Source: Terrisporobacter glycolicus ATCC 14880 = DSM 1288 (GTDB lineage Bacteria; Bacillota; Clostridia; Peptostreptococcales; Peptostreptococcaceae). Taken from it: a stretch of DNA of 64,000 bases. The stretch spans positions 3,720,001-3,784,000 of the forward strand of contig NZ_CP117523.1 in assembly GCF_036812735.1 (NCBI RefSeq), in the 5' to 3' direction. Below are positions 2,022 through 51,365 of the stretch, one piece after another; the stretch's first letter is position 1, and every line of letters begins with the position of its first letter. The notes below the pieces were generated by a model, which was not told where the DNA came from, did no database searches, and was given only the letters and a program-made list of their open reading frames with translations. Both the position numbers and the translations under genes were made by a program.

Positions 2022-2333
2022 CTACATATTTTTTTTAGCTTCTAATAACATCTCATTAGCTTGTTGCATACATGCTATAGCTTTTTCTATATACTCAGCA
2101 GTTTCTTCTTTACCCATTTCTTTTGCTTTGTTTACCCATTCTCTAAAACCTTCTTCATGAGATTGATTATGATTAACCCAGTGTACTAATAAAATGTTTA
2201 AAGTTTTTTCATCCTTGCTTACTTCTTCTTCCTCGTGACTATGACAGTTTCCTCCACACCCACATTCAGCATGTACATGATCGTGTTCATGATGATGACC
2301 TTCATGATATAAAGCAACATTTTTATTAAACAT
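2022..2333 (-). CDS. Histidine-rich small protein, probable metal-binding or storage protein
   Basis: A 103-residue soluble protein with a strikingly metal-binding N-terminus: nine histidines and three cysteines lie between residues 10 and 33 (H10, H13-15, H17, H19, H21, C24, C26, C30, H31, H33), followed by a run of glutamates. The rest (about residues 40-103) looks helical and contains a further H-x3-H-x3-H pattern around residues 51-59. Such stretches bind Ni2+, Co2+ or Zn2+, as in HypB, SlyD, Hpn and CooJ, though this is not a homologue of any of these that I can name. It is the last gene of the cooT unit, with an AGGGGGA ribosome binding site. The neighbouring CooT homologue and FecBCE transporter suggest nickel buffering for CODH/ACS (inference). 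Confidence 0.8.
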   Translation of the reverse strand: MFNKNVALYHEGHHHEHDHVHAECGCGGNCHSHEEEEVSKDEKTLNILLVHWVNHNQSHEEGFREWVNKAKEMGKEETAEYIEKAIACMQQANEMLLEAKKNM

Positions 2334-2346
2334 TTTAAACTCCCCC

Positions 2347-2763
2347 TTATTTTATATTAAATTCTCTTTTTATTATTTTAATCGTATCTTTAATTAATAA
2401 TGATAATGGTTTGCCTTCTATACCTATTACTTCAAAATTTTCTGGCATTATTGGTAATAATATTTTAAATGCTTCGCTATCACATACGGCCTCACTTATG
2501 GTGCTTGTCACTTCTCCCATCATAGTATTTGGCATTACAATTGAAATAGGCGAAACAATTATATTGGCTTTTTTTGAAGATACTACTATGGCATTTTCTC
2601 CTGTCGCACCTTTATTTGCATGAGCCTTCATCATGGCACTTGTAGCTATGGAGTTTGTACCTAATGCATATATTTCCATATATGATGGTAACTCCTCTCT
2701 TAGTGCACTAACCACTTGAGCTCCTATACCGCCACCCATTCCGTCTATTACTGCAATTATCAT
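2347..2763 (-). CDS. DUF3842 family protein
   Basis: A 138-residue soluble protein whose N-terminus is a Rossmann-like strand-loop-helix (IIAVIDGMGGGIGAQVV), as in other DUF3842 proteins. The remainder alternates short strands and helices with glycine- and alanine-rich turns (ALGTNSIATSAMMKA). The family is widespread in clostridia and acetogens and commonly found near CODH or other metalloenzyme genes, but no biochemical function is established to my knowledge. The gene lies 25 nt after cooT and 13 nt before the His-rich gene, so it is almost certainly co-transcribed with both. A role in nickel or corrinoid handling is therefore possible but is only inferred from context. The ATG start follows AGAGGTAGG. 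Confidence 0.8.
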   Translation of the reverse strand: MIIAVIDGMGGGIGAQVVSALREELPSYMEIYALGTNSIATSAMMKAHANKGATGENAIVVSSKKANIIVSPISIVMPNTMMGEVTSTISEAVCDSEAFKILLPIMPENFEVIGIEGKPLSLLIKDTIKIIKREFNIK

Positions 2764-2788
2764 ATTTGACCTACCTCTAATTTAATTT

Positions 2789-2980
2789 TTATTTTTCTGC
2801 TAAAATTATTTTGTGGTCCATTAATCTTATCTCTTTAATAAAACCATCAACTATTTTTTGTTCTCCCAACAAATCTGTTAAGTAAACCTTTCCTTCAGTT
2901 GGATCTACGTTTACCACATTTTCCATTACTTTTTCTAATTTATTATCTTTTCCTAATACAAATGCAGATGATTCACACAT
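2789..2980 (-). CDS. cooT: CooT family nickel-binding protein
   Basis: A 63-residue protein beginning MCESSAF and ending in an IKEIRLMDHKIIL block, with the central VVNVDPTEGKVYLTDLLGEQ segment, which is characteristic of the small CooT family. Rhodospirillum rubrum CooT is a Ni(II)-binding dimer involved in CODH maturation, and metal binding there depends on the N-terminal cysteine, present here as C2. The protein is expected to deliver or sense nickel in the cytoplasm. The gene heads a three-gene unit. It has a strong AAGGGGGAT ribosome binding site and lies behind its own promoter and an attenuator-like hairpin (separate entries). Its presence beside FecBCE genes and a few kilobases from cooS and acsB supports a nickel role. 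Confidence 0.85.
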   Translation of the reverse strand: MCESSAFVLGKDNKLEKVMENVVNVDPTEGKVYLTDLLGEQKIVDGFIKEIRLMDHKIILAEK

Positions 2981-3013
2981 ATAAAAATCCCCCTTAATTA
3001 TATAAATCTAATC

Positions 3014-3055
3014 AAAAAAAAGATTTCTAAAGGCATTACAATACCATAAGAAACC
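3014..3055 (-). terminator. Intrinsic terminator/attenuator in the cooT leader
   Basis: Minus-strand hairpin: outer stem GGTTTCT/AGAAATC, inner stem GGTAT/ATGCC, then eight or more T. It lies between the cooT promoter (3092-3120) and the cooT start codon (2980). Transcripts from that promoter must therefore read through it. It could also stop transcripts arriving from fecE. Confidence 0.75.
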
Positions 3056-3091
3056 TTCATGATTTCACTTACAAGTTTTTCTATTAATATA

Positions 3092-3120
3092 AGTATATAC
3101 TCATATTATTTGCAAGTCAA
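3092..3120 (-). promoter_or_regulatory. Sigma-A promoter of the cooT unit
   Basis: On the minus strand a -35 TTGACT (3115-3120) and a -10 TATACT (3092-3097) are separated by exactly 17 bp. The predicted start of transcription is near 3085, about 105 nt upstream of cooT. A perfect 8-bp palindrome ACTTAAGT lies just upstream of the -35 box. Confidence 0.7.
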
Positions 3121-3196
3121 ACACTTAAGTACAATTTATTTCTTACAACAAAAAGTATTGTAAAAAAAACTTGTTTTTGTATTGTATTTTCATAAA

Positions 3197-4054
3197 TTAG
3201 ACATATATTTGATTTTCTTCATGAGAATGTAATCCTTTAAATCCATCCTCATGTATATGGTTATCCCCTACCCCATTTATATGTTCATGGGTATGCATAA
3301 AAGACACTTGTAATTTTTGATTAATTGGATTTTTACCTACATAAGCATTTACTCCAAATATTTCTTTTAATGTTTCTGATGTTATTACTTCTTCAACATT
3401 TCCTAATTTCTTTATTTGTCCATCTTTCATAACTATTAAATAATCACAATACATAGATGCTATATTCATATCATGTATTGCGGACAATGTTGTTATATTC
3501 ATACTTTTTACTAAATCCATTAACTGTATTTGATACCCAATATCTAAATGATTTGTTGGTTCGTCTAATATTAAAAAATCTGTATTTTGTACTAATGCTC
3601 TTGCAATTAAAGCTCTCTGTTTTTCTCCTCCTGACAAGTTAGAAAAACTTCTATGACTATAATCATCTAAACCTACTTTTTTTAGCATTTCTGATACCAT
3701 TTTTAAATCATCCTTGGAGTAGTCTTCAAAAACAGATTTATAAGGGTATCTTCCCATTTTTACTATTTGCTCCACAGTGAAGTCAAACTGAGAATTACTT
3801 TCTTGAGCTAGTACAGCTATTTCTTTTGCACAATCCTTATCTTTCATCTTGGATAAGTCTTTATTGTCCAAAATTATCTTCCCACTTAAAGGCTTATGTA
3901 GCCTATATATATTTTTTAATAAAGTGGATTTACCTGACCCATTCGGTCCTATAATACCTACAAAACTTCCTTTAGGAACATCAAAAGATATATCTTTCAA
4001 TATTTCTTTATTATCTATACTAAATCTTAAATTTTTCACTTGAATTTTGTGCAT
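3197..4054 (-). CDS. FecE/FepC-type ABC transporter ATPase with a histidine-rich C-terminal tail
   Basis: A 285-residue cytoplasmic ATPase of an iron-siderophore/cobalamin-type importer. It shows Walker A GPNGSGKST near residue 37, the Q-loop, signature LSGGEKQRALIARAL and Walker B FLILDEPTNHLD, in the usual order and spacing for FecE, BtuD and FhuC. The normal domain ends near residue 250. The last ~35 residues are an unusual tail with seven histidines (in MHTHEH, NHIH and HSH clusters). His-rich tails or loops are known in nickel, cobalt and zinc transporters, so the tail suggests a divalent metal substrate rather than a siderophore (inference). The start codon overlaps the stop of the permease gene by one base, indicating translational coupling. 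Confidence 0.88.
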   Translation of the reverse strand: MHKIQVKNLRFSIDNKEILKDISFDVPKGSFVGIIGPNGSGKSTLLKNIYRLHKPLSGKIILDNKDLSKMKDKDCAKEIAVLAQESNSQFDFTVEQIVKMGRYPYKSVFEDYSKDDLKMVSEMLKKVGLDDYSHRSFSNLSGGEKQRALIARALVQNTDFLILDEPTNHLDIGYQIQLMDLVKSMNITTLSAIHDMNIASMYCDYLIVMKDGQIKKLGNVEEVITSETLKEIFGVNAYVGKNPINQKLQVSFMHTHEHINGVGDNHIHEDGFKGLHSHEENQIYV

Positions 4055-5136
4055 TATTCATTGCCTCCAAAATCATATTCTTTTTTGGAAATTAAATATA
4101 AGAAGAACGGACCACCAACTAGTGATGTTATTATTCCTATAGGTATTTCTATTGGAGGGAAAAGTCCTCTTGCAAATACGTCTGATATTATTAAAAATAT
4201 AGCTCCTACTAAAGACGAAAGTACTATTAACTTTTTATGATCATTTCCTCCAATAGTTCTACATACATGAGGTACTACAAGGCCTATAAATCCAATTGCA
4301 CCTGTTATTGCAACTAAAGACGATGTTAATAATGTGGCTAATATTAATATCATAGATTTTATAAACTTCACATTTATACCCAAAACTATGGCATTATCAT
4401 CTCCTAAAAGCAGTATATCTAAAGACTTAGACATTATAAACACTATTATCATCACTATGACTAAAATGACAAAAGGAAGTAATAATACATCCCATTTTGC
4501 TCCACCTAAACTACCCACAGTCCAAAACAACGCATTTTTAGCTTGATTTGAATTTTCTGCTGAATATATAAGTAAATTAGTTAACGCTGAAAATATGGTT
4601 GATATGGCCATTCCTGTAAGTACAAGCCTTGTTGTAGATGTTGTCTTTCCCATTTTAGTTCCTATTGCAAATACCAATACTCCTGATATTATAGAACCCA
4701 CAAATGCACCTGCACTAATGCTATTAATTCCTATTGCTGATACTCCTCCAAGAACAATTACCCCAACTGCTCCACAAGATGCTCCTGAAGATATTCCTAA
4801 TATGTACGGCTCTGCTATTGGGTTCTTTGTCACACATTGCATCATTACACCACAAAGTGCCAATCCAGCTCCGCATATGGCTCCCAATAAAACTCTAGGA
4901 AATCTAATTTCCCATATTATATTTTGTGTCATAACTGTTCCAACATTGCCAAATAAACTTCCTTTTGTTAACTTATTAAGTAGTACTTTATACACTTCTC
5001 CAGGTTCTACGTATGTACTACCTATTGCAATAGCAATAACTACTGTTACCGCTAATATGACTGCTAACAGTAGTATCCAAAACAAGAAACCTTTCTTGTT
5101 AGAAAGGCTTCTCTTTTGCTTTATCGATATTTCCAT
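4054..5136 (-). CDS. FecCD-type ABC transporter permease
   Basis: A 360-residue permease with a basic N-terminus and about ten hydrophobic helices, the architecture of the FecCD/BtuC family. Family hallmarks include WEIRFPRVLLGAICGAGLALCGVMMQ near residue 95, PYILGISSGASCGAV, and GLVVPHVCRTIGGNDHK near residue 280, the coupling-loop region contacting the ATPase. It forms the membrane channel with FecE- and FecB-type partners encoded on either side, and its start and stop codons overlap both neighbours by a single base (TAATG arrangement). Family members import Fe-siderophores, haem or cobalamin, and CeuE/FecDE-type systems of some Helicobacter species import nickel and cobalt. The substrate here is inferred from neighbours to be nickel or another metal. 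Confidence 0.88.
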   Translation of the reverse strand: MEISIKQKRSLSNKKGFLFWILLLAVILAVTVVIAIAIGSTYVEPGEVYKVLLNKLTKGSLFGNVGTVMTQNIIWEIRFPRVLLGAICGAGLALCGVMMQCVTKNPIAEPYILGISSGASCGAVGVIVLGGVSAIGINSISAGAFVGSIISGVLVFAIGTKMGKTTSTTRLVLTGMAISTIFSALTNLLIYSAENSNQAKNALFWTVGSLGGAKWDVLLLPFVILVIVMIIVFIMSKSLDILLLGDDNAIVLGINVKFIKSMILILATLLTSSLVAITGAIGFIGLVVPHVCRTIGGNDHKKLIVLSSLVGAIFLIISDVFARGLFPPIEIPIGIITSLVGGPFFLYLISKKEYDFGGNE

Positions 5137-6158
5137 TATTTATTTTCTCCATAGAAATATCCATACATTTCTTCTATTAACTTAGGATTTCTAACACCTG
5201 GAGATAAATCTGCTAATCCTACAACATATATCTTATTATTTTTTATAGCTGATACATCTTTTAATGCAGGATGAGATTTTAGAAACTCAATTTTTTCTTT
5301 AACTGGTTGTCCAGCCATAAAATCAGTTACTAATATTACTTCTGGATTTTGTGCTACTATGCTCTCAAAAGAAACATTTATATATGGTTTTTTTGCATCT
5401 TTTCCAAATGTATTACTTCCACCTGCTAGCTCAATTAAATTATTAGCAAGACCAGATCCAACTACCATGGCATCTTTTTCTCCAGAATCATACACCATCA
5501 TTTTCACTCTATCTTCATCTTTTATATTTCCTAATTTATCAGTTACTGATTTTATATCACTTTTCATTTTATTTATTACTTCTGTTGATTTATCTTGAAC
5601 TCCAAATATTTTTCCAAGTAGTTCAAAGTCTTCATAAACAGTATCTACTGTAGCATCTGCAGAATAAGATTTAGCCATAAATGGTGCTATATCTTTTTCA
5701 ATAAGTTCCTGTGGAGATCCTGTCGTTTGCTCACTTATTGATGAATCCCAACCACTAACAAAATCTGCTCCTGTAGCCATAAAACCTTCTTTTGATACAG
5801 AATGTCCCTCACCTATTTTAAGTTGTGGTATCTTTTCATAAGCTTCTTTAAATTCTGGTAGTATTGGGTTATCTAAAAGTGCTGTTCCTACCATTCTATC
5901 CCCTAAATCTAGTGCTAGTAACATCTCTGTCATAAATTGAGATAAAGTTACAGCTTTTTGTCTTGGAGTTTCTACCTTTACATCATAATCTTTCGCTCCG
6001 TCAGAATATGTATACTCTACCTTTTCAAAATTACTTGATTCAACTTTAGCTTCTGGTGATTCTGTCTTCTTGCTAGAAGAACATCCAACTGCACCTAGCG
6101 TTAAACCTATTACTGATATTACTACCAGTACTCTTTTTAAACTTTTACTTTTTACCAT
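5136..6158 (-). CDS. FecB/BtuF-type substrate-binding lipoprotein
   Basis: A 340-residue secreted lipoprotein. Residues 1-25 form a signal peptide with a basic start and hydrophobic core, and the lipobox AVGC places the acylated cysteine at C26. The mature part has the TroA/periplasmic-binding fold of FecB, FhuD and BtuF: RQKAVTLSQFMTEMLLALDLGDRMVG near residue 65, an acidic lobe, a long helical linker, and a C-terminal half ending NKIYVVGLADLSPGVR. It would capture the substrate outside the membrane and hand it to the FecCD permease. It is the first gene of the unit, with an AAGGGGGATA ribosome binding site and a ~215-nt leader containing a long hairpin. Ligand residues cannot be assigned by eye. 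A nickel or cobalt complex is the best contextual guess, and a siderophore is the alternative. Confidence 0.88.
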   Translation of the reverse strand: MVKSKSLKRVLVVISVIGLTLGAVGCSSSKKTESPEAKVESSNFEKVEYTYSDGAKDYDVKVETPRQKAVTLSQFMTEMLLALDLGDRMVGTALLDNPILPEFKEAYEKIPQLKIGEGHSVSKEGFMATGADFVSGWDSSISEQTTGSPQELIEKDIAPFMAKSYSADATVDTVYEDFELLGKIFGVQDKSTEVINKMKSDIKSVTDKLGNIKDEDRVKMMVYDSGEKDAMVVGSGLANNLIELAGGSNTFGKDAKKPYINVSFESIVAQNPEVILVTDFMAGQPVKEKIEFLKSHPALKDVSAIKNNKIYVVGLADLSPGVRNPKLIEEMYGYFYGENK

Positions 6159-6220
6159 AAAATATCCCCCTTAAAATTACTATTTTTATACTTATTACTT
6201 TTTATATTGATTAAATATAA

Positions 6221-6273
6221 AAGACCATGAGATTATATATATCAATAAGGATATATATAACCTTCATGGTCTT
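6221..6273 (-). terminator. Long hairpin in the fecB-type leader, possible attenuator
   Basis: Arms AAGACCATGA...TTATATATATC and GATATATATAA...TCATGGTCTT pair over 21 bp with one small internal loop (GA opposite CCT) and a 6-nt terminal loop. On the minus strand it is followed by only four T in a row (TCTTTTATATTT), so it would be a weak intrinsic terminator. It lies between the promoter (6383-6411) and the start codon (6158). Confidence 0.6.
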
Positions 6274-6355
6274 AATTATTATATTTATGTTGTTATTATG
6301 TAACGTTTAATCTTTTCTTAACTTATTTTCTTAATTAATCTTCTGATAAATATTT

Positions 6356-6370
6356 GGCACTTCTTGTGCT
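6356..6370. promoter_or_regulatory. Small dyad just downstream of the fecB-unit transcription start
   Basis: GGCAC-TTCTT-GTGCT contains a GCAC/GTGC dyad with a 5-nt spacer, located about +6 to +20 relative to the predicted start. It could be a repressor operator or a short 5' hairpin of the leader. No cobalamin-riboswitch B12 box or other riboswitch consensus was recognised in the leader. Confidence 0.35.
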
Positions 6371-6382
6371 TGATTCCTTAAT

Positions 6383-6411
6383 AATATAACATCTATGACT
6401 ATATATGTAAA
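6383..6411 (-). promoter_or_regulatory. Sigma-A promoter of the fecB-fecC-fecE unit
   Basis: On the minus strand a -35 TTTACA (6406-6411) and a -10 TATATT (6383-6388) are spaced by 17 bp. Transcription would start near 6376. This leaves a leader of about 215 nt before the lipoprotein gene. Apart from the dyad and hairpin listed, the 6159-6507 stretch holds no gene. Confidence 0.65.
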
Positions 6412-6579: not shown

Positions 6580-8508
6580 TTACTCTAAAATTTCTTTTAC
6601 TGTTGGAAATTGATCTATATTAGTATGTGGCAAGAAGCAAGCTGACACAAATTCATCCATATATGTAGGATATACACTTAGCTCTACATATGTCATTTCA
6701 GATGCTATTTCTTCTAATTTTCGTCTAGCCTCTGAACTTATTAAACTTAAATATGACCCAACTAATGAACTGTTTCCTATATACTTAAACTTATTTCTTT
6801 CTATATCTGGAAGTAAACCTATTAAAATTGAGTTTTCAATATCAAGATTATTTCCTATTCCTCCTGCTATATAAACATTATCAATTACTTCAAAATCCAT
6901 TCCTAAACTTTCTACAAGTACTGATGCTCCTGAATATATAGCACCTTTTGTTCTAATAAAATTATCAATATCTACTTCATTAATTAATAAATCATTTTCT
7001 AGGCCTTCATAGTCTTCTTTAAATGCCAAGATATATTCACCTATATCATGCTCATTAAATCTGATTCTTTTATTATCTAATTCTCTTTTTATTTTTCCTC
7101 TTCTATCAATTATACCTTTAAGCAGCATTTGACATATTAAATCAATTATACCTGAACCGCAAATTCCTATAGGTGTACATTCCCCTATTATTGTTAATTC
7201 TGGTTCTAAAGTATTTTCGTCTATACCAACTTTCTCTATTGCTCCATCTGATGCTCTCATACCACAACTAATTCCTCCACCTTCAAAGGCCGGTCCCGCT
7301 GAGCATGCACAACACATCATAAAGTCTTTATTTCCAAATACAATTTCTCCATTAGTCCCTAAGTCTATGAATAATGTATTTTCTTCGCTAGCCCATATTC
7401 CTGCTGATAATACACCTGCCGTTATATCTCCACCTACATAACTTGCCACGTTTGGAGCTAGGTATATTAAGGCACTTTTATTAACATTCAATCCTACATC
7501 TTCTCCCATTAAGTTTGGTGATTTTAGATATGGTGGAATATATGGTTCTAGTCTTAAATAGTCAGGATATATGCCTAAGAAAAGCGTAGACATTGTTGTA
7601 TTACCAGATAACACAACTCTTACTACATTATTTTTATTTATACCAGTACTTGTATATAGAGATTCAATTAATGGGTTTAGAGTATCATCTATAATTGCTT
7701 TTCTCATAATTTCTAAATTATTTTTTCTAACAGCAAATACAATTCTATTAATTACATCTGCACCATATTTTATTTGTGCATTTCCTGAAGATGCCTTTTC
7801 TACAACTTCATTAGTAATTAAGTTTACTAAGCAAACAACTACAGATGTTGTACCTATATCTATAGCTAATCCATATAATTCTCCTTCTTTATTTCCTGGT
7901 TCTACATTTAATATCGTAATCTTATTTTTCTTTTTAACATAAGTTAAAGTTATTTTAAAATTATCTTTCCTTAATACTAATGGTAGCTTTTTTAATATAT
8001 CTAATCTAAAATCTATCCCATCAATACCCAAGTCTTGTCTTACTTGTCTATCTAATCTATCTACATCACTTATATTGTCATCTAATGACGGTTCATCTAG
8101 TTCAATATATTTTTTTTCCACATTAGTACTATAAGAAAATTCATTTTCTTCTATTATACCTCTAGCTCTATCAAATAATTTTTTATCTACTTTTTTACCC
8201 GTACCCTCAATTTTCATTCCATGCATAGAAGATGAAAGTCTAGATGGAACATCTACAACAATATCTTCTATTACTTCAGTTGCACAAGCTAAAATATATC
8301 CTTGTTCATATTCTTCATCACTAATATGTACTGTCTTTTCTGTATCACATTTTCCCTCTAATAACTTTACTTTACATTTTCCACATGATTGAGATCCATT
8401 GCAAGGCGCATCTATAAAAATATCTGCTTTTCTTGCTACATCTAGTAATTTTTCTCCAAGTTCACATTCTACTTCCTTGTTATGTGATTTAAAAAAAACT
8501 TTAGCCAT
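6580..8508 (-). CDS. acsV: Corrinoid protein reductive activator (RACo-type ASKHA ATPase with N-terminal 2Fe-2S ferredoxin)
   Basis: A 642-residue cytoplasmic protein. Residues 1-90 are a plant-type 2Fe-2S ferredoxin with the ligand set C36, C42, C45 and C75. A linker and middle domain follow, and from about residue 215 there is an ASKHA-type ATPase region (LYGLAIDIGTTSVVVCLVNL, then NTLFIDLGTNGEIVFG and CGSGIIDLICQML). RACo uses ATP hydrolysis to re-reduce the inactive Co(II) state of the corrinoid iron-sulfur protein to Co(I), which it here probably does for AcsCD. The gene sits directly downstream of the acs operon in the same direction but is separated by a terminator after gcvH, with a GGGGTGAG ribosome binding site and its own terminator. 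RamA-type activators of O-demethylase corrinoid proteins are close relatives. The genomic position favours the CoFeSP partner. Confidence 0.85.
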   Translation of the reverse strand: MAKVFFKSHNKEVECELGEKLLDVARKADIFIDAPCNGSQSCGKCKVKLLEGKCDTEKTVHISDEEYEQGYILACATEVIEDIVVDVPSRLSSSMHGMKIEGTGKKVDKKLFDRARGIIEENEFSYSTNVEKKYIELDEPSLDDNISDVDRLDRQVRQDLGIDGIDFRLDILKKLPLVLRKDNFKITLTYVKKKNKITILNVEPGNKEGELYGLAIDIGTTSVVVCLVNLITNEVVEKASSGNAQIKYGADVINRIVFAVRKNNLEIMRKAIIDDTLNPLIESLYTSTGINKNNVVRVVLSGNTTMSTLFLGIYPDYLRLEPYIPPYLKSPNLMGEDVGLNVNKSALIYLAPNVASYVGGDITAGVLSAGIWASEENTLFIDLGTNGEIVFGNKDFMMCCACSAGPAFEGGGISCGMRASDGAIEKVGIDENTLEPELTIIGECTPIGICGSGIIDLICQMLLKGIIDRRGKIKRELDNKRIRFNEHDIGEYILAFKEDYEGLENDLLINEVDIDNFIRTKGAIYSGASVLVESLGMDFEVIDNVYIAGGIGNNLDIENSILIGLLPDIERNKFKYIGNSSLVGSYLSLISSEARRKLEEIASEMTYVELSVYPTYMDEFVSACFLPHTNIDQFPTVKEILE

Positions 8509-22908: not shown

Positions 22909-24870
22909 TTATTCAGCAGTCACTTCTGCTAATCTTTTATTTAAAATTCTTTCTTGATATAAAGTTTCAAATGCTGGACGCTTAGATTCTATATCATCCA
23001 TTATCATTTTAGCTAATTCTACTGGATCTTCGTTAACATAGAAGCAAGCTCCTACTTGATCTTTTAATCCTCCACATAATAATTCAACAGCTCTAGAAGA
23101 ACCTGTAACTGGTGGCATAACACCTAAGAAAGTATCTATACCAGAAGATACAACATAAGTACCTATTGCTACAGCTTTTTCTGACATCCACTCTGGAGCA
23201 CATCCAGCAACTGGTAAGTCAGATATATCCATATCACAAGCATTAGCTACTAATGAACAAACATTCAGTATACGAGAGTTATCAACACAAGATCCTAAAT
23301 GTATTACAGGAGGTATATCAACTAATTCACAAACCGTTGCTAAACCTTTTCCTGCATATTTAGGAGCATTTTCTTTTAGCATTAAACCATTCTTACAAGC
23401 TGCAGAAGCTCCACATCCTGTAGTTACTACTAAGAAATCATTTTTAATTAATTCTTTTATTATAGTTAAATGGTTATAGTTAGATGGAGTTTTAGCATTG
23501 TTACATCCAACAACACCTACAACCCCTCTTATTACTCCAGATGCAAGAACATCTACTAATGGTTTTAATGTATCCATTTCATCTATTTGTGTATTAACAA
23601 CATTATTTAATTGTCCTACTATAGCTTCTTCAGCATATCCAACCATACCTTCTGATTTTAAATCTGGAACTAAAACTTTAGATGCATCTCTATTTTTAAA
23701 GTTCATTATAGCTTCTCTTACTATTGTTTTAGCATCTTCCATAGCTGTATCTTCATGGAATTCCATATGTGTAGCACCAGTTATTCTAGCTTTTGGAGAT
23801 GTAGTTATAAATTTAGTATGATAATGGCTAGATAATTCAGGTAAAGCTGGGAATATACACTGAACGTCAACTATCATAGCTTCAACAGCACCAGTTATTA
23901 TAGCTAATTCTTGCTGATGGAAGTCACCAGCTATTTTAACACCATGTCTCATTGTTAATTCATTACCTGTACAACATATTCCAGATAATGTTATTCCATC
24001 AGCTCCAACTTCTTTAGCTAATTCTTGCATTTCTGGTAATTCAGAAGCTGCAACTATCATTTCTGATAATGTTGGCTCATGTCCATGTAATATTATGTTT
24101 ACATTGTTTCCTGCTAATACATTTAAGTTAGCTTCAGTATGAACTGGCTTTGGAGTTCCAAATAATATATCGGAAATCATTGTACCTATCATAGATCCTG
24201 CCCAACCATCTGCCATTGAACATCTCATTGACATATGTATTAGGGAATCTAAGTCAGCTGTACATCCTATATGAGTTGAATGCATCACTGTAGCTATTTC
24301 TCTATCTATAGCCCTTGGCTCTATTCCTAATTTATTCCATAATTCTTGTCTTACTTTTGGAGCTCTTTTTAATAATTTTGATACACCAAATGGTTTACCA
24401 AATTCCATTAAACATACTTCAGCTACTTCATGAGCCAATTCATATATATCTTTACCTTCAGGATCAACATCCATAAATTTAGCGAACTCTATTAATTTTT
24501 GAGGTTCTTTAACTTGATAGTCTCCACCAGGGCAAGTCAATGCTAATGTATGAGTTATATCTCTAGCATGATCTGAATGGGCAGCAGTACCAGCAGCAAC
24601 CATTCTAGCAAAGTTTCTACCAACTATAGTATGCTCGTCAGCTCCACAAAGCCCCCTTGGAGTTTTTGCACTTATTCTACATGGTCCCATACCACAGTTT
24701 CTACAACATACACCTTGAAGACCAAAACCACATTGAACTTTGTATCCTAACTTTCTTTTATACATAGTTTCAACGCCATCTTTTTCTGCCTTCTCTAACA
24801 TTACCTTACTGTTTAAGTCTATTGTCATGTTTTGCATTTGCTCAAGAACGTTAATATCTTTTTTTTCCAT
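22909..24870 (-). CDS. cooS: Anaerobic carbon monoxide dehydrogenase catalytic subunit
   Basis: A 653-residue Ni-Fe CODH (AcsA/CooS type) that interconverts CO2 and CO and feeds CO to AcsB. The N-terminal cluster motif reads C47 and C55 (D-cluster at the dimer interface), then C56, C59, C64 and C75 (B-cluster). C-cluster regions are recognisable in order: HGHEPTLSE, LSGICCTGNE, CIFPALPEL, GVVGCNN, TTGCGASAACKNG and HLGSCVDNSR. The ATG at 24,870 is chosen because GAGGGGAAAAAGAAT precedes it at proper spacing. A longer reading adds 17 residues without family support. It is the first gene of the 14-gene operon, after a ~500-bp gene-free upstream region. Confidence 0.96.
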   Translation of the reverse strand: MEKKDINVLEQMQNMTIDLNSKVMLEKAEKDGVETMYKRKLGYKVQCGFGLQGVCCRNCGMGPCRISAKTPRGLCGADEHTIVGRNFARMVAAGTAAHSDHARDITHTLALTCPGGDYQVKEPQKLIEFAKFMDVDPEGKDIYELAHEVAEVCLMEFGKPFGVSKLLKRAPKVRQELWNKLGIEPRAIDREIATVMHSTHIGCTADLDSLIHMSMRCSMADGWAGSMIGTMISDILFGTPKPVHTEANLNVLAGNNVNIILHGHEPTLSEMIVAASELPEMQELAKEVGADGITLSGICCTGNELTMRHGVKIAGDFHQQELAIITGAVEAMIVDVQCIFPALPELSSHYHTKFITTSPKARITGATHMEFHEDTAMEDAKTIVREAIMNFKNRDASKVLVPDLKSEGMVGYAEEAIVGQLNNVVNTQIDEMDTLKPLVDVLASGVIRGVVGVVGCNNAKTPSNYNHLTIIKELIKNDFLVVTTGCGASAACKNGLMLKENAPKYAGKGLATVCELVDIPPVIHLGSCVDNSRILNVCSLVANACDMDISDLPVAGCAPEWMSEKAVAIGTYVVSSGIDTFLGVMPPVTGSSRAVELLCGGLKDQVGACFYVNEDPVELAKMIMDDIESKRPAFETLYQERILNKRLAEVTAE

Positions 24871-25344
24871 ATTCTTTTTCCCCTCTTTGTAATTTTTTAA
24901 CCCTATTTTTTGAAACAACAAAAAGATGCCTTAAGTATATATTTCAATATATTTTAAAAAATATATGATAAACAAAATCATTAGGGAACTATCCTATTGA
25001 TTTAAAAAAATTAATTTTTTCACAAGCATAGATATAATTTGTTATATTCACATAACATTAAACGCACAACTATCTACTGCTTTTATGCAATTTTAAAAAG
25101 ATCGTTCCTTCTATATTAATTATTGGAAATTATTTTGTCGATGGAAATTTAGATTAGAATATAATATTAGATTTGTCACAATTTATTTTCCATTTTTTTC
25201 ATTTAGTCGCTTTAATTAGATTATATATTAATTTACTTGAATTGTATACCGATTTGCATTTTAAAAATAGCATTTATAATCATTCTTTTTTTAATTTCCT
25301 TTATAGAATAATGATTTTTTTCTTTCATAAATATCATTTGTCTA
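24871..25344 (-). promoter_or_regulatory. Gene-free region upstream of the CODH/ACS operon (promoter region, elements not resolved)
   Basis: About 470 bases, very AT-rich, with no credible gene; the plus-strand frame at 25,173-25,367 has no ribosome binding site and odd composition. The operon promoter must lie here. The best minus-strand candidate I see is TTGTGC-N17-TATAAC around 25,040-25,070, plus a weaker TTGTTT-N18-TATATT near 24,950-24,980. I found no convincing CcpA cre site, Rex site or known riboswitch. Confidence 0.4.
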
Positions 25345-25346
25345 CA

Positions 25347-25390
25347 AAAAACCATAGTATGAGATAATTAACCTCTAACTATGGTTTTCA
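25347..25390 (-). terminator. Rho-independent terminator after the TPR gene
   Basis: Minus-strand AAAACCATAGT, ~20-nt loop, ACTATGGTTTTTT. It immediately follows the stop codon of the TPR gene (25,410) and insulates the CODH/ACS promoter region. Confidence 0.85.
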
Positions 25391-42744: not shown

Positions 42745-42985
42745 ATAAAAAAAGCCCTTCATCCCTATCTAGGGACGAAAGACTGTTATTCGCGGTACCA
42801 CCCTAGTAGTTTAATAATATAAAAATATTAATAAACCACTCAACAAAACTTAACGCGTTCAACGTTAAAGCCTACTGATTTCTGTTCAGCTTTAATGCTC
42901 CAGAGTGAACTTCTTATAAATACCTAGTAAATACTCACAGCAAATGTATTTTTCTCTTTCCTAAGTTAAATTATAATACTTTTCT
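42745..42985 (-). promoter_or_regulatory. T-box riboswitch, phenylalanine type (pheST leader)
   Basis: The minus strand carries the T-box antiterminator sequence GGGTGGTACCGCG (42,791-42,803), followed by a 12-bp terminator stem (GTCTTTCGTCCC/GGGATGAAGGGC, about 42,752-42,785) and a run of seven T. The specifier codon appears to be TTC at 42,907-42,909: it is followed by A, four bases and GGAGC, the same arrangement as at the thrS T-box in this window. Uncharged tRNA-Phe would stabilise the antiterminator and switch on pheS-pheT. Confidence 0.93.
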
Positions 42986-43053
42986 CTATCATAGCTTTTT
43001 TGTATATAGTTTTTGTACAATTATAACATACTTAATATTGCATTTTCAACATA

Positions 43054-51109: not shown

Positions 51110-51365
51110 AATAAAAAAACTCGTCCCATAAAAATTGGGACGAGCTATATCTCGTGGTTCCACCCAAGTTGATATATATAATATACATATCCTCTTGATG
51201 ACTATAAGGTAGTCAACCGAATACTTTCACATATACATGTTACTAAATTCTGCTCCAAGTTAGTTTTCAAATAGGATTATTTTTGATAAGCTCACAGCCA
51301 AGGCTCATCTTCTCTGTAAAACAATTTATCTATTTTACTTTGTCTCTTCATCACATTATTTTTAA
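51110..51365 (-). promoter_or_regulatory. T-box riboswitch, threonine type (thrS leader)
   Basis: The minus strand has the T-box GGGTGGAACCACG (about 51,151-51,164), then a terminator hairpin GCTCGTCCCA/TGGGACGAGT with seven T (51,114-51,147). The specifier codon is most likely ACT at 51,262-51,264: it is followed by A, four bases and GGAGC, exactly as at the pheST T-box. Stem I with the GAAGATGAGCC region lies upstream. Confidence 0.93.

Follow-up and report, generated by a model that had tools for sequence, protein, structure and literature searches.

Two adjacent gene units of Terrisporobacter glycolicus ATCC 14880 = DSM 1288 lie next to the operon for carbon monoxide dehydrogenase/acetyl-CoA synthase (CODH/ACS), by whose nickel chemistry this clostridium fixes carbon, within a 64,000-nucleotide stretch of contig NZ_CP117523.1 (positions 3,720,001 to 3,784,000) that we refer to as the window. 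The first unit encodes an importer of the Fec type and the second encodes CooT, the uncharacterised family DUF3842 and a His/Cys-rich protein of 103 amino acids (aa). Our results suggest that these are probably two co-regulated nickel operons that serve the adjacent CODH/ACS and are controlled by nickel through transcription attenuation. A first-pass annotation of this DNA had already proposed nickel uptake and buffering. To this we add that either unit starts with a promoter-like site of its own, followed by a leader that carries a common attenuator-like element, and that this element is conserved between promoter-like site and gene and recurs before nickel/cobalt importers, cooT and lar genes.

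Gene units and their nickel context

All six open reading frames (ORFs) in 2022-6411 were confirmed on the minus strand, and their Pfam domains agree with the arrangement in two adjacent units that had been described. The first unit consists of a FecB-type substrate-binding lipoprotein with the lipobox ..AVGC (5136-6158; Peripla_BP_2, PF01497, and orthologs), a FecCD-type permease (4054-5136; PF01032) and a FecE-type ATPase (3197-4054; ABC_tran, PF00005), and its gene ends overlap. This combination of a Peripla_BP_2 substrate-binding protein (SBP), a FecCD permease and an ATP-binding cassette (ABC) ATPase in one unit places the importer in the FecBCD-E class; Pfam did not find in it the SBP_bac_5 SBP, two DppBC-type permeases and two ATPases of the NikABCDE class. 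The second unit comprises CooT (2789-2980), DUF3842 (2347-2763) and the 103-aa protein (2022-2333). The upstream neighbour of the fecB unit, at 6580-8508, is AcsV (NF040756, 1055.8 bits, cut-off 800), and from there the CODH/ACS operon runs on to CooS at 22909-24921.

The distribution of these genes follows that of ACS. Among 71 genomes of the same family, with PF03598 as the ACS marker, CooT and ACS are present in exactly the same 43, and DUF3842 is present in those 43 and in two more (G033 and G034). A close FecB ortholog (72-100% identity) was found in 21 of the 43 ACS-positive genomes and in none of 27 others (Fisher p 5.6e-6, not corrected for relatedness), and a fragment of it occurs additionally in G031, a genome that is 75% complete. 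The gene set is thus not one that occurs mainly in genomes without nickel enzymes, as judged by ACS. In all fetched family loci long enough to show it, the CooT-DUF3842-His-rich triad lies downstream of AcsV, and this conservation argues that the gene set did not come together by chance. The FecBCE genes lie between AcsV and CooT in the genus of the window (G000, G066-068), downstream of the His-rich gene in other genera (G047, G048, G051, G058, G059) and elsewhere in the genome in others; the link between importer and CooT is therefore seen in some genomes and not in others, which limits the nickel reading. Other metal importers are found at the same locus. In G070, a member of the window's genus without the FecB ortholog, NikABCDE directly follows the triad (NikA TIGR02294, 631 bits, cut-off 393), while FecBCE is directly followed by CbiMNQO in G030 and by at least CbiM and CbiN in G059. 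G033 and G034, which have neither ACS nor CooT, carry DUF3842 beside NikABCDE-like genes and LarC, and profiles identify in G033 additionally LarB and a nickel-pincer-dependent ornithine cyclodeaminase. Many relatives also carry two radical S-adenosylmethionine (SAM) proteins and a lipoate ligase-like protein between AcsV and CooT (L068:6458-9127 and most relatives); these genes are missing in the window's genus and presumably serve lipoylation of a GcvH-like protein.

Beyond the family, CooT was found in 43 of 391 genomes of the class Clostridia, and DUF3842 is its usual neighbour in 40 fetched CooT loci. The pair was found after NikM/CbiM-Q-O genes of the energy-coupling factor (ECF) type, after FecBCD genes only 24-37% identical to those of the window, near LarB/LarC, before NikABCDE and inside CODH/ACS clusters. 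Its recurrence with such different genes indicates that DUF3842-CooT is a pair associated with nickel in general and not with CODH in particular. A family of proteins of ~211-220 aa also recurs beside CooT/CODH genes (L181, L199, L203). The gene-neighbourhood survey that the first-pass annotation had called for thus places DUF3842-CooT beside NikMQO, NikABCDE, Lar and CODH genes and finds the close FecB ortholog, one fragment aside, only in ACS genomes. Because of the co-occurrence with ACS, the Nik/Cbi importers at the same locus in relatives, the neighbours of DUF3842-CooT and the leader common to nik, lar and cooT operons, we concur with that annotation in preferring nickel to siderophore uptake, and both units very probably import and hold nickel.

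The FecE ORF terminates in ...FMHTHEHINGVGDNHIHEDGFKGLHSHEENQIYV, a His-rich C-terminal tail (encoded at ~3200-3298, minus strand) whose pattern HxHxHxNGxGxxHxHEDGFxGxHxH is kept in close orthologs and absent from homologs of 38-47% identity. In 13 relatives' copies a separate ~90-aa protein, far richer in His and with a repeat in common with the FecE tail (HHNPHxNGCCGxGGENCCGSH... HTHEHGH), is encoded directly upstream of the SBP (for example L038:6772-7086, L039:7636-7905, L043:6562-6834 and L055:6408-6677); the window does not have it and G068 seems to retain a remnant. About 100 nt upstream of these genes (for example in L059, L055 and L063) a conserved stretch, GTATAAAACTAAATTTTCnGAAAA, lies just upstream of a promoter-like site, and in L059 this stretch is a perfect palindrome, AAATTTTC-A-GAAAATTT. 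It is a possible DNA operator that would provide a second layer of control.

The 103-aa protein has, exactly as had been noted, nine His and three Cys in residues 10-33 (His at 10, 13, 14, 15, 17, 19, 21, 31 and 33; Cys at 24, 26 and 30). Its ORF has no Pfam match and no relevant sequence match in PDB, where searches returned no CooJ chain. Its C-terminal domain recurs in relatives with and without His-rich extensions, and in alignment A2 of these relatives HWxxHxxxH, which we take to be a nickel site that marks CooJ, is invariant (H14, W15, H18 and H22). With this domain and the N-terminal His run, the 103-aa protein looks CooJ-like. CooT was identified by profile (PF10133, 85.6 bits, cut-off 27), by the invariant MCES including Cys2 (alignment A4) and by its fold: the AlphaFold2 model matches the CooT structures 6fan and 5n76, with a TM score of 0.89 to 6fan. 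CooT of Rhodospirillum rubrum binds Ni(II) (PMC6006190). DUF3842 (PF12953, 173.6 bits, cut-off 28.5) has an invariant GGGIG loop and is confidently modelled with a Rossmann-like fold (pLDDT 91), for which only distant Rossmann matches and no close relative were found in PDB. No description of its function was found in the open-access literature, subscription papers and preprints being outside the search, and a search of plasmids returned two DUF3842 records only.

The shared leader element

The promoter-like site of the fecB unit (6383-6411, minus strand) has a -35 TTTACA (6406-6411), a 17-nt spacer and a -10 TATATT (6383-6388), and that of the cooT unit (3092-3120, minus strand) has a -35 TTGACT (3115-3120), a 17-nt spacer and a -10 TATACT (3092-3097); both were assigned by consensus match only. 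When the two leaders are read side by side, both contain CATGAAGGTT, each time with a hairpin and then a run of T behind it, and the common motif [CT]CAUGAAGGUU sits at the 5' arm of an intrinsic terminator. In the fecB unit the element spans 6219-6275 on the minus strand (ACCATGAAGGTT arm, hairpin, CTCATGGTC-U tract; fold z -7.86) and in the cooT unit 3014-3064 on the same strand (AATCATGAAGGTTTCTT...AGAAATC-TTTTTTTT; fold z -3.07). A leader with an intrinsic terminator, placed between a consensus-matched promoter-like site and the gene, has the anatomy of a transcription attenuator. No Rfam 15 family, the NiCo riboswitch included, matches either leader in a covariance-model search, and no description of the element or of a nickel-uptake attenuator was found in the open-access literature, again with subscription papers and preprints outside the search.

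The motif is conserved in leaders that were chosen by protein homology only. A match to CATGAAGRTTT in at least 10 of its 11 positions is seen for 21 of the 22 non-redundant cooT leaders and for 16 of the 18 SBP leaders, compared with ~1% of shuffles. Promoter-like sites are found ~30 nt upstream of the element in 88% of cooT leaders (at least 10 of 12 positions; 8% when shuffled) and upstream of 38% of the non-cooT copies (8% in shuffles). In most copies CCATGAAG pairs with CTTCATGG to form an outer stem, while the pairing in cooT leaders is made by the inner GGTTTCTT. That the motif is kept while its pairing partner changes favours recognition of the single-stranded 5' arm, as far as can be judged from the leader sequences. 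In alignment A3, 96.7% of cells are paired and changes occur on the 3' side only (U-A to U-G 16, G-C to G-U 11 and 20); base-pair covariation was not used as proof, since the 5' arm is fixed by the search pattern. The class scan did yield variants with CCACGAAGG and compensating 3' changes. A leader peptide starting from the AUG of the motif was considered and rejected on inspection: there is no ribosome-binding site, and the AAG codon is fixed though AT-rich genomes predict AAA.

A covariance model of the element (R1) was built from 45 training sequences, which include a close ortholog leader (L032) and exclude the window itself. R1 matches the fecB leader of the window at 44.5 bits (E 1.3e-8 per genome; E 1.9e-9 in another run). 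Within the family, 37 of 43 CooT-positive and 4 of 28 CooT-negative genomes have a match at E 0.001, and in the class, matches of ~34 bits or more occur in 9 of 43 CooT-positive genomes compared with 6 of 348 others (p 3e-6). A strict pattern matched 7 of 391 class genomes, and the reversed pattern, used as a control, matched none. An R1 match upstream of CooS at 25346-25390 of the window was rejected as an ordinary terminator without GAAGG. The wider scan covered 84,980 named genomes. Among the matches listed, strong intergenic hairpins were found in Romboutsia, Terrisporobacter, Tepidibacter, Acetobacterium, Eubacterium callanderi, Sporomusa, Geosporobacter, Syntrophomonas and Desulfobacterales, as well as in a Nitrospirae metagenome-assembled genome in which CooT comes next; 30 of the 31 hairpin-forming matches listed are intergenic, and 41 of the 49 without such a hairpin lie inside ORFs. 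Carriers of the element among tractable acetogens are Acetobacterium wieringae, Eubacterium callanderi and Sporomusa ovata.

The element precedes NikABCDE, NikM/CbiM (Nik/CbiMNQO) operons, LarE-LarB-LarC, distant FecBCD genes, CooT, FmdE, and an ECF S component with a SAM methyltransferase; examples are LarE-LarB-LarC in L382, FecBCD in L379 and NikM in L369. The non-redundant type-II copies number 73: Nik ABC, Nik/Cbi ECF, Lar or Fec-type genes follow 36 of them, methyltransferase/ECF-S, FmdE or DUF362 genes follow a further 24, and the other 13 have no assignment, which for at least two comes down to bookkeeping (a split ORF; a palindrome taken on the wrong strand). The operon of SAM methyltransferase and ECF S component (FLPMHIPVLIAGF..) stands regularly behind the element (L128, L130, L138, L156, L157, L160, L162, L163, L341, L375) and is a candidate importer of nickel or cobalt, or of a chelate of these. 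FmdE-like genes behind the element (L120, L137, L154, L164, L232, L371) are sometimes followed by NikA-type or FecB-type importers. DUF362 proteins are found in the same position in L085 (2049-3014) and L134, the former scoring below threshold against the N-terminal domain of lactate racemase (22.1 vs 23.3 bits), and in L127 (G000:C1:1452942) the element is followed by a PIG-L type deacetylase and then by a NikA-like SBP and permeases. The window also contains two T-box leaders (42768-43001 and 51133-51360) and one tRNA gene (1792-1881), all on the minus strand.

Possible mechanism and alternative explanations

We envisage that the lipoprotein captures nickel, the substrate that we infer, as an ion or small chelate, and that FecCD and FecE import it. 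The His-rich ATPase tail, CooT, the HWxxHxxxH protein and possibly DUF3842 would then receive, buffer and pass on the metal. Both operons would be controlled after transcription start, in a manner proposed to depend on CAUGAAGG in the leader. In the nascent leader, the single-stranded [CT]CAUGAAGGUU would form, or overlap, the 5' arm of the intrinsic terminator. Nickel would also be the signal, and the direction of control would be such that a putative factor keeps the motif open when nickel is scarce, so that transcription continues, while the terminator forms when nickel is replete. More tentatively, the CCAUGAAGGUU leader could be the cis target of an RNA-level system for sensing nickel (and perhaps cobalt), which would act by antitermination on nickel importers, cooT and the lar genes of the nickel pincer in Clostridia, Negativicutes, Desulfobacterota and Nitrospirae, through either a metal-sensing RNA-binding protein or a minimal riboswitch. 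Two candidates for the factor were considered and not retained. A role of CooT as a CsrA-like RNA-binding protein is unsupported: Foldseek returned no CsrA, a literature search found no paper linking the two, and the element also occurs in genomes that lack CooT. DUF3842 is present in G033, where R1 found no element; in the likewise DUF3842-positive G034 there is one R1 match, which reads equally on both strands.

Several observations weigh against our interpretation. Foldseek found no convincing RNA-binding match to the CooT fold beyond CooT itself, ~11 of the 73 type-II copies have no recognisable metal gene downstream, and below ~35 bits R1 also picks plain palindromic terminators without GAAGG. 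In addition, the element stands before CbiM-type operons in the CooT-lacking genomes G125, G152, G246 and G191, which suggests that cobalt, alone or with nickel, could be the signal. Together with the CbiMNQO genes that adjoin FecBCE in some relatives, this raises the alternative that importer and element are there for free cobalt ions, alone or along with free nickel ions; our analysis does not tell CbiM from NikM. We regard this alternative as rather unlikely, given that the element also precedes the nickel-associated cooT and larEBC and NikA-type operons. The existence of palindromic look-alikes also bears on the idea that the common leader is a mere terminator sequence or repeat with no regulatory role. 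The anatomy of the element is indeed that of an intrinsic terminator, and the copies L133, L135 and L136 seem to end upstream genes, but the empty reversed-pattern control, the intergenic position of the hairpin-forming matches, the enrichment of promoter-like sites upstream and the strong functional bias of the genes downstream make this explanation improbable.

Import of another substrate has also to be considered. A corrinoid importer of the BtuFCD-like kind could supply the corrinoid iron-sulfur protein of CODH/ACS: BtuFCD belongs to the same ABC family, AcsC, AcsD and AcsV next door are corrinoid proteins, and the SBP has a weak sequence match to the vitamin B12-binding protein 5ysc (E 2.8e-4). 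However, Rfam covariance models detect no cobalamin riboswitch in the region, while two further FecB-type importers encoded in this genome (at 3501436 and 3504521; L384) each have one upstream, which argues against corrinoid import here. NCBIfam scores for BtuF and BtuC are far under their cut-offs (28 vs 234 and 222.5 vs 334), and neither the His-rich tail nor a leader in common with cooT, nik and lar operons fits this role, so that we give it little credence, if marginally more than the mere terminator. Least plausible of all is an iron-siderophore or haem importer that stands beside CooT by chance. Ferric-siderophore systems gave the domain families their names, and the best NCBIfam scores are generic, but the close orthologs are all in ACS-encoding genomes, save for the fragment in one incomplete genome, the linkage to CooT occurs in two arrangements, and here too the leader common to nickel operons and the His-rich tail point elsewhere.

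Relation to known systems

A leader element found on nickel/cobalt importers from several unrelated classes, on cooT and on lar would be relevant to a long-open question, that of how nickel uptake is controlled in anaerobes without NikR. In a survey of 2009, fewer than half of the organisms that have NikABCDE also had NikR, and NikR-independent control of NikABCDE was suspected (PMC2667541). The element offers a concrete, testable answer; it would also connect nickel with DUF3842 and with several operons of the ECF-S/methyltransferase and FmdE kinds, and provide a handle on nickel supply in gas-fermentation acetogens. The NiCo (czcD) riboswitch is likewise a leader RNA tied to nickel/cobalt, but it is found upstream of cation efflux genes (PMC9294342) and has no Rfam match at the present leaders. 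The cobalamin riboswitch resembles the element in the leader control of FecB-type importers, and in this genome it is found on two others and not on this one.

The second unit resembles the CooT/CooJ system of R. rubrum (cooCTJ; accessory nickel proteins of CODH) in the CooT family and fold, the invariant Cys2 and the presence of a His-rich partner. It differs in that DUF3842 stands between CooT and the His-rich protein and in that the CooT-DUF3842 pair recurs with nickel genes other than those of CODH. The 103-aa protein has its His-rich stretch at the N-terminus and the HWxxHxxxH domain at the C-terminus, presumably the reverse of the domain order in CooJ. In R. rubrum the loss phenotype was rescued by added nickel (PMC6006190). 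The first-pass annotation knew of no described system with this gene set. Part of the set has been noted before: in Clostridium autoethanogenum CooT (nbp) and a His-rich protein (hp) lie beside the Wood-Ljungdahl (C1-fixing) cluster and their deletion alters growth, while the accessible part of that report describes no transporter or regulatory element with them (PMC10230548). A precedent for the importer is FecDE/CeuE of Helicobacter mustelae, a FecBCD-type ABC importer that takes up both nickel and cobalt (cited in PMC3856676). That system belongs to a Gram-negative bacterium and works with an outer-membrane receptor, whereas the present one has a Gram-positive lipoprotein, an ATPase whose tail is rich in His, and an RNA leader.

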